Assembly (NCBI RefSeq): GCF_001577525.1
Contig: NZ_CP013015.1
Coordinates: forward strand, 2,003,751 to 2,067,750
Direction of reading: 5' to 3'
Source: Candidatus Desulfofervidus auxilii
Lineage (GTDB): Bacteria; Desulfobacterota; Desulfofervidia; Desulfofervidales; Desulfofervidaceae
DNA length: 64,000 nucleotides
Part shown: piece after piece, positions 16,044 through 17,172 of the stretch
How positions within the stretch are numbered: position 1 is the stretch's first letter
How the letters are laid out: each line of letters begins with the position of its first letter
Program-made: the position numbers and the translations under genes
Notes under the pieces: model-generated
Told to the model about the DNA's origin: nothing
The model's database searches: none
What the model saw: the letters and a program-made list of their open reading frames with translations, nothing else

Positions 16044-16089
16044 TATTCTATTTTAATCAAGGTTAACTTCACTAACCTATTTATAGCTT

Positions 16090-16170
16090 AGCAGATTGCT
16101 CCGTTAAGCCATCAAGACCAAGCCCTTCAGGGTGGCTTTCGCCAGTCTTGATGGCACTCCGCAATCTGCT
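16090..16170. other. 81-bp branched inverted repeat (structured element of unknown type)
   Basis: The outer arms AGCAGATTGC (16090-16099) and GCAATCTGCT (16161-16170) pair perfectly. The second arms GCCATCAAGAC (16108-16118) and GTCTTGATGGC (16145-16155) also pair perfectly. Two small hairpins lie inside (CCC-TTCA-GGG and GGC-TTTC-GCC). TTTTT follows on the + strand. It could be a structured RNA, a miniature mobile element or a terminator. Confidence 0.55.
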
Positions 16171-16275
16171 TTTTAAAAAAGTAGAGTTAGTTGAAAGGAA
16201 AAAAGTTTTTTTCTTTCTTGCCAACCTTAATTTTTCAGGAGCACGCTGCGGAATGCAGGTGTAGCCCTGGCAGGT

Positions 16276-16307: not shown

Positions 16308-16528
16308 GTAAAGAAAATTATTTACAAATCTTAATGATCATGATAATTGTTTAAATAATGAGGTAATGAGGTTACAAAGAAGTGAATTTCCTACTTTATG
16401 TACAGAAAGTTAAATTCTTCCAGAGCAAGGGATAAACGAAATAGGTTCGGATTATCTCCCATTTTGGGGGGATAAACGAACCCATTCGATTATTTTAAGT
16501 TAGATGACATTACTGGAGTAGATGAAAC

Positions 16529-17102
16529 ATGATAGTTAATGCCGTAAAATTGTGTTTAGAAAACATGAACAAGAAATTTGTAGATTTGTCGAGATTAAAG
16601 TTTGATGAGCTCAATAATAGGTTAAAAGAGACACTTCAGGAACAAAAGATTCAAGAGCGCCCTTTTGCCTATGAATTCTACCATCAATTTAGAAAATTGT
16701 GGGATAGTGGGTCTATTCTGGGAATTGTTTCTGAAGATGTAGTCAGCCAAGCTGAAGTTAATAAAACTTATCAAGAAATACCCGATCTAAAAAAGATACC
16801 TGATTTTTTTATTACACAAGCCCAATGCTAATGAAAATTTTGCAGTTATAGAATTTAAATTGGCTTCTAATATTGGTGAGATAGAAAAGGATTTCAAGAA
16901 ACTCATAGCCTTTAAGTGTAGACTTAGGTACATATATCTTATTGAGATTATAATAGGAGATGAAAATTCATTAAGAACTGCCAAAGAACGGATACGTTCT
17001 CTGAATAATTCAGATGGTGAAGAGATTATCTTAATAGAATTTAACACAGATTCGTGGAAAGCAAATGACTATAAAATCAAATACAGGAGCAACGTCGCCT
17101 AA
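16529..17102 (+). pseudogene. Frameshifted PD-(D/E)XK nuclease-like hypothetical protein
   Basis: Two adjacent frames read as one protein. The first (16529-16831) ends LKKIPDFFITQAQC. The second, joined in the +1 frame near the T7 run at 16804-16810, continues HKPNANENFAVIEFKLASN and then IGEIEKDFKKLIAFKCRLRY to the stop at 17100-17102. Joined, they give IPDF...VIEFK, the spacing of a PD-(D/E)XK catalytic core (Asp in PD, then Glu-x-Lys), so a nuclease fold is plausible. I do not recognise the family. The shift may be a real mutation or a homopolymer sequencing error (one extra T or A). It is the only ORF of an attC-ended cassette. Confidence 0.6.
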
Positions 17103-17172
17103 CAGCGGGTATGCGGTTCGTTATCACTCACCCAAACCCTTACGGGTTTCGCATACCCACCAGCCGTTATCC
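17097..17172 (+). repeat. attC-like recombination site
   Basis: 76 bases bounded by GCCTAAC and GTTATCC. The arms GGGTATGCG (17107-17115) and CGCATACCC (17150-17158) pair perfectly over 9 bp. An inner AAACCC-TTAC-GGGTTT hairpin (17134-17149) and an 18-base unpaired stretch (17116-17133) complete the fold. Length and architecture fit known attC sites; the right core site deviates from GTTRRRY at two positions. Confidence 0.6.

Follow-up and report, generated by a model that had tools for sequence, protein, structure and literature searches.

A gene cassette beside an attI-like site in Candidatus Desulfofervidus auxilii: a probable relic of an integron-like capture system independent of IntI

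Introduction

How did a single gene cassette, ending in an attC-like palindrome, come to lie in a chromosome with no integrase gene next to it? The question is raised by a locus in Candidatus Desulfofervidus auxilii, whose genome is one contig (NZ_CP013015.1) of 2,540,211 bases. The stretch analysed here, referred to as the window, comprises 64,000 nucleotides (positions 2,003,751 to 2,067,750 of the forward strand), and coordinates given without a locus or genome refer to it. An earlier note had described an orphan integron-type cassette that might be a stray insertion or a cluster of attC sites lacking an integrase (CALIN).

Integrons are defined by IntI together with its added domain, which is held to be necessary for integron recombination (PMC9668308). 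Extrahelical bases are described as common to all known attC substrates and as determining strand choice (PMC2727003), and the I2 helix reads these bases (PMC7790495). PMC7790495 also states that direct proof is lacking for a link of I2 to single-strand recombination, and that there is no ancestor sequence to draw on. According to PMC8138268, a subgroup of integron-like tyrosine recombinases includes members without the insertion, and the insertion is called essential for integron function. Searches of an open-access library turned up no recognisable account of cassette systems driven by such insertion-less members.

Results

The cassette and its copy in a second genome

The inserted cassette spans 667 bp on the plus strand (16500-17166), with the G/TT crossover placed by the positions of the boxes. 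Its 5' core box, GTTAGAT (16499-16505, plus strand), is composite, with the G coming from an attI-like site and TTAGAT from the cassette. Read from the sequence, the start codon ATG lies at 16529, and GCCTAAC (17097-17103) encloses the TAA stop. The positions that the earlier note had given for the box, the ORF start and the palindrome were confirmed, with GTTAGAT, the ATG, GCCTAAC with its stop, the 9-bp stem, the hairpin and GTTATCC all present. Its single ORF was not, since the cassette gene is broken and requires two frames on the plus strand. The first frame encodes 100 aa, including IPDFF (16529-16831), and the second, including VIEFK (16797-17102), continues after a one-base frameshift near a T run and ends with the stop within GCCTAAC. 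No family matched the gene at the cut-offs of Pfam and NCBIfam, and Rfam at gathering thresholds gave no match in the window. The PD..ExK pattern of the gene may point to a likeness to PD-(D/E)xK nucleases.

Besides the own genome, one of 297 genomes, G159 from another family, carries a homologue of the cassette gene, with a second frame that is 80% identical. The DNA homology to G159 (85%) starts at 16506, the base after the box, and extends into the attC. The upstream flanks of the two copies are unrelated, and the attC of the G159 copy is degenerate. The same unit is therefore found in another context, one mark of an integron-like cassette. Although they belong to different families, both genomes have the one-base frameshift near the T run (16797-16831; L227), which rules out a sequencing error in just one of them. 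Compared with G159, the first frame shows an excess of third-position substitutions (11/6/19, p 0.008), which is absent from the second frame (14/10/14, p 0.36). At the level of sequence, this codon-position pattern on either side of the frameshift suits a truncated or dying gene. Programmed slippage may be an alternative explanation for the shared frameshift; the downstream part is without coding bias.

A second class of attC-like sites

The attC-like site occupies 17097-17172 on the plus strand. It consists of R'' (17097-17103), a perfect 9-bp stem (17107-17115 with 17150-17158), CCCAAA (17131-17136), an apical hairpin and the right box R', GTTATCC (17166-17172). The bottom strand of the site folds with -16.5 kcal/mol, compared with -8.3 (sd 1.9) for shuffles (z -4.4).

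Two covariance models were used. R1 was built from 14 attC-like sites of other genomes only, located downstream of HARP-type recombinases or related to the window site, in an alignment (A1) made without structure. R2 was built from ten attC sites of the IntI array of the own genome (alignment A2). In the window, the site at 17097-17172 is the sole R1 match and well outside chance expectation (60.8 bits, E 3e-12), whereas R2 gave no match, even at E<=10. The earlier note had named rejection of 17097-17172 by a covariance model as evidence against its reading; the canonical model indeed rejects the site, but R1 accepts it. The earlier note was correct in reading the locus as an integron-type cassette that has an attC-like site but no adjoining integrase gene. 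The own genome as a whole contains 23 R1 sites at E<=0.012, among which the window site ranks best, and 35 canonical attC sites found by R2 at E<=0.006, and the two lists have no place in common. The absence of an integrase gene and of further cassettes, as first reported, thus holds for the window but not for the genome, which has an IntI gene and these 35 canonical and 23 R1-class sites.

R1-class sites have AAC-GTT boxes and a stem of ~9-11 pairs without a bulged base, with CCAAA or a close variant before the apical hairpin and then CTTC or a close variant. The only unpaired left-arm column in the model holds a base in 1 of 44 R1-aligned rows. The canonical attC sites of the own genome have a stem with a bulged base. 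Compensatory changes are frequent in A1, with 9 of 11 L-stem pairs altered on both sides. When the outer box stem is included, 96.7% of cells are paired, compared with 25-44% in slid and 75.3% in shuffled alignments.

Two variants were seen among related sites. In the own-genome R1 sites (L157-L179), GTC replaces GTT in the R' box in 11 of 23 (GTT in 8 of 23), while R'' mostly retains AAC; the GTC variant is absent from 42 sites of other genomes and may mark inactivated crossover points. In the Bacteroidota loci L089, L099 and L132, near-identical palindromic repeat arrays (GTATAACCGCAATTACGGCGG...) lie downstream of the recombinase and resemble the repeated attC of large chromosomal integrons.

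An attI-like site and a decayed recombinase platform

The cassette directly follows an attI-like site (16430-16499, plus strand), which is conserved in other families and lies 3' of recombinase genes in relatives. The site comprises a distal palindrome (~16432-16455), a spacer with CCCATTTTGGGG and a proximal palindrome (~16472-16493), and terminates in AAG beside the crossover point 16499|16500. The segment 16429-16511 is 76-87% conserved in genomes from other families within the phylum. In L031 and L029, the site stands immediately 3' of a tyrosine recombinase gene or gene end, and several own-genome copies come after decayed versions of this gene (L048, L049, L050, L052, L225). A GTT box follows the own-genome sites of the window, L048, L049, L050, L051 and L225; the L052 site has no GTT box and runs into an attC remnant.

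Two relics of such a platform precede the site in the window, both on the plus strand. Positions 16309-16361 correspond to the leader preceding the recombinase start codon, with 96-98% identity to the sequence immediately before the start in L048, L049 and L052. Positions 16360-16424 correspond to the stretch between the recombinase stop and the attI-like site and are 97% identical to L050 1661-1725, which comes after a C-terminal recombinase remnant. Since the leader match abuts the post-stop match, the entire recombinase reading frame has been lost between them. A stray insertion, as the earlier note had suggested, is unsupported, because the site directly follows a tyrosine recombinase gene in relatives and the cassette lies at this site with a decayed platform (leader and 3' region) upstream. 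Likewise, the 5' box GTTAGAT is present but not free-standing, as it abuts the conserved recombinase-associated site at 16430-16499. We also dropped the idea that the GTTATCC right box proves the entry of a circular cassette into a naked secondary (attG-like) site. This argument fails because boxes of the GTTATCC type are found in the own genome's canonical arrays as well, and the conserved upstream attI-like site took its place.

An empty site was sought in relatives and none was readable; the upstream homology of G001 (74%) stops before the platform. Further upstream, 16057-16250 is a palindromic repeat of ~194 bp, MITE-like, for which four other own-genome copies are listed (94-95% identity). 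The repeat also occurs in L050, where it precedes the platform relic, and in L054.

Our collection of relatives comprises 80 loci, of which 26 were inspected and counted. GTT directly follows the palindromic site 3' of the recombinase in 23 of these 26 loci, read by eye, the exceptions being L068, L086 and L087. Many of 53 further loci, mostly Bacteroidota, are similar in look with a single palindrome and were left uncounted. Across 16 loci, the paired attI palindromes resemble each other more within a locus (12.3) than between loci (9.05, sd 0.58; 0/20000 shuffles). In sequence terms, this is as expected of binding sites that track their own recombinase. The cargo at L044 842-1454 and L031 1656-2206 presumably includes DUF433/DUF5615-like and HicB/HicA-like toxin-antitoxin pairs.

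Recombinases without the IntI insertion

The intact recombinase of L031 (374 aa) scores 245.6 bits against the XerA-like model NF040815, above the cut-off of 220, and 231 bits against the IntI model TIGR02249, below the cut-off of 265. Its N terminus gives a weak HARP match (E 1e-4, below cut-off). In an alignment with seven IntI proteins as comparison, two runs of columns filled in IntI (31 and 10 columns) are empty in 27 aligned recombinases and mostly empty in the Xer rows; the rows of L147 and L151 are empty. In a tree of 37 proteins, from which L147 and L151 (empty rows) and L012 (length) were left out, IntI forms one clade (100/100). The HARP recombinases do not form one clade and are placed around the IntI clade. 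L008 was rejected as an Xer row, as it groups with the HARP set and is a family copy with its C-terminal end lost.

By sequence, the nearest solved structures are IntI4 (2a3v) and then Xer proteins. A structure model of the recombinase (pLDDT 77, pTM 0.51) likewise has its best structural match in IntI4 2a3v, followed by Xer structures. The matches of the structure model place the recombinase fold and are not decisive for function. All own-genome recombinase copies that we looked at are broken or without the catalytic end. One of them, L225 9886-10932, is a 348-aa copy that is 61% identical to L031; its C-terminal catalytic end is lost and it is fused to the attI-like region.

Box complementarity

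Entry of a circular cassette between G and TT requires the first box of the cassette to complement the R'' of its own attC. We examined 38 box pairs, 15 from attI to the first attC, with the attI boxes read by eye beforehand, and 23 within arrays; two of 44 R1 matches were dropped, L057 (same DNA as L067) and L117 (weak). Exact reverse complementarity between the 5' box and the R'' of the same cassette was seen for 27 of the 38 (shuffled mean 3.6, max 13), and 134 of 152 variable box positions agree, compared with 80.9 (sd 5.5) after shuffling (0/20000). From attI to first attC, the match is exact in 13 of 15, the misses being L063 and L068. Consecutive boxes in Clostridium sp. OS1-26 (L082) read GTTAGAT/ATCTAAC and GTTATAT/ATATAAC. 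For the window itself (GTTAGAT and GTTAGGC), 2 of 4 variable positions agree, and in the canonical array of the own genome 3 of 8 pairs are exact, with 23 of 32 variable positions agreeing. For the Bacteroidota, 40 loci were listed and 5 omitted because a box was missing or the DNA was too short; under a strict stem test, the signal is weak, with the rule shown in only 7 of 35 loci (shuffled mean 1.0, max 5; 300 shuffles).

These results bear on two other explanations. The recombinase could be the ordinary integrase of a small mobile element, with the attI likeness of its end accidental and the cassettes chance neighbours or CALIN hitchhikers. The platform copies of the own genome are indeed dispersed and decayed, in the fashion of mobile elements, but GTT follows the site directly in the 23 of 26 loci read by eye. 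In addition, the boxes are exact complements in 13 of 15 cases, in several phyla, and the sequences after the site are therefore cassettes. We regard this explanation as very unlikely. Alternatively, the palindrome could be a transcription terminator or REP-like repeat with coincidental boxes, given that stem-loops are common after stop codons and that the palindrome sequence has near relatives in the own genome. This explanation, close to the widespread terminator considered in the earlier note, is contradicted by the box complementarity (27/38) and by the G159 cassette homology, which starts exactly at the box. The R1 score of the window palindrome (E 3e-12) and the position of R1 sites after recombinases on one strand also argue against it, and it can be given hardly any credence.

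Distribution of recombinases, R1 sites and IntI

Over 90 loci (824,798 bases), some of which are also R1 training sources, R1 gave 44 matches at E<=0.1 and R2 gave none. Loci with a recombinase or attI-like site contain 37 of the 44 R1 matches, all 37 downstream and on the same strand; the other seven lie in L059, L060 and L062, stretches without a platform. In IntI loci of other genomes, R2 finds seven held-out sites and R1 finds one. The latter (L220 1199-1290) is separated by ~5 kb from the canonical attC sites of an IntI array, and mixed R1/canonical arrays may exist.

Among 297 genomes of the phylum, R1 sites (E<=1e-4) occur in 38 and the recombinase (E<=1e-60) in 14, with both in 9. R1 sites are thus present in 9 of 14 recombinase genomes, compared with ~1.8 expected (Fisher p 4.6e-6). 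Five of the 14 have no R1 site, and 29 of the 38 R1-positive genomes have no recombinase at E<=1e-60. These 29 genomes count against a strict one-to-one link between recombinase and R1 sites, and in some of them the platform may have decayed, as it has in the own genome.

The own genome also encodes a full IntI (genome positions 2238312-2239256; TIGR02249 498 bits, cut-off 265), 218 kb away from the window cassette. Its cassette array lies on the upstream side of the IntI gene, on the other strand. Other clusters of R2 attC sites lie away from the IntI gene, at genome positions 2249353-2255382, 554051-557091, 296729-297397 and 1291485-1292330.

Acting in trans, this IntI could have placed the cassette at a site other than attI (attG-like, CALIN formation), the recombinase site being only a favoured target. 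CALIN formation through off-target insertion is proposed in PMC8618304, attG sites are in print, IntI with an array exists in the own genome, and one R1 site lies near an IntI array (L220). Several observations speak against it. The R1 and R2 site lists of the own genome are disjoint, and R1-class stems are without the extrahelical bases that are read by the I2 helix of IntI (PMC2727003, PMC7790495). No TIGR02249 match at E<=1e-60 was found in 12 of 16 platform genomes, two of which are complete chromosomes by title. These IntI-negative genomes include Clostridium sp. OS1-26 (L082) and also L075 and L083, which have R1 matches together with exact boxes. Insertion by IntI appears unlikely to us, although the IntI of the own genome may have acted in trans on this one cassette.

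Discussion

Taken at the level of sequence, we consider it likely that the window preserves what is left of a single unit of a cassette-capture system that resembles an integron but is independent of IntI. Upstream, in the same orientation, would have stood a XerA-like tyrosine recombinase that lacked the I2 insertion and bore a HARP-like domain at its N terminus. It would have bound the two short palindromes of the attI-like site, immediately 3' of the recombinase gene, and synapsed this site with the attC-like hairpin of the cassette. The circular cassette would then have joined the chromosome between G16499 and T16500 (AAG|TT), giving 16500-17166. The attC-like site, with its long paired stem without extrahelical bases, CCAAA bulge and apical hairpin, would presumably have been read as a folded strand. 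On this reading, the capture would have been the work of the HARP-type recombinase rather than of IntI, with recombination of a single strand. Chemistry, strand choice and any dependence on replication would follow by analogy with IntI. Later, the recombinase gene would have been deleted and the cassette gene frameshifted, so that the unit would now be inert or usable only in trans.

The pairing of sites without extrahelical bases with recombinases without I2 is a correlation in the sequences and, at the same time, a prediction. With reasonable probability, we see here a second integron class, defined by I2-less tyrosine recombinases with a HARP domain, a dedicated attI on the 3' side of the gene and a separate class of attC sites that lack extrahelical bases. 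Such a class would occur in at least Thermodesulfobacteriota, Nitrospirota, Nitrospinota, Bacillota and Atribacterota, and probably Bacteroidota, and the window would be a fossil of it beside a canonical integron. Because the HARP recombinases surround the IntI clade in the tree, they may represent integrons before the acquisition of the I2 helix. If this is true, a widespread system of I2-less recombinases and attC-like sites lacking the bases read by I2 would open the origin of integrons to testing, and would add reservoirs of cassettes that may escape tools based on IntI and on canonical attC models.

Judged from its sequences, the system would work like an integron, yet it matches neither the IntI nor the canonical attC description. 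As in canonical integrons, insertion would fall between G and TT of GTTRRRY, the 5' box is complementary to R'' in relatives and partly so in the window, most cassettes carry one gene with its stop within R'', and arrays lie on one strand. Unlike there, the recombinase has no IntI-specific insertion, scores below the IntI cut-off (231 vs 265 bits) and bears a HARP-like domain at the N terminus; its gene is directed at the cassettes and has attI at the 3' end. The attC stem is without extrahelical bases and carries a CCAAA bulge. An I2-bearing integrase is a defining feature of the canonical integron; the window has no recombinase, and the 27 aligned relatives have no IntI-only columns. Similarly, the R and L stems of a canonical attC are present in the window site, but the bulged base is absent and R2 gives no match.

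Integrons with an inverted intI, of the Treponema type, also have the integrase gene aimed at the cassettes and attI 3' of the gene. Those integrases are IntI proteins, whereas the recombinases described here are without the IntI insertion. 'Inverted IntIs' are named as a sub-clade in PMC8352920. CALIN and attG insertions share with the window a cassette without an adjoining integrase gene, but here a platform relic and an attI-like site are present. The CALIN label of the earlier note comes near the present state of the locus, yet CALINs have at least two clustered attC sites and no integrase, and the window has one site, of the non-canonical R1 class, and none of R2. Finally, simple tyrosine recombinases of the XerA/XerC/XerD type (NF040815) have the same catalytic domain, whereas the recombinases here are accompanied by an attI-like site and cassettes and bear an extra N-terminal domain.
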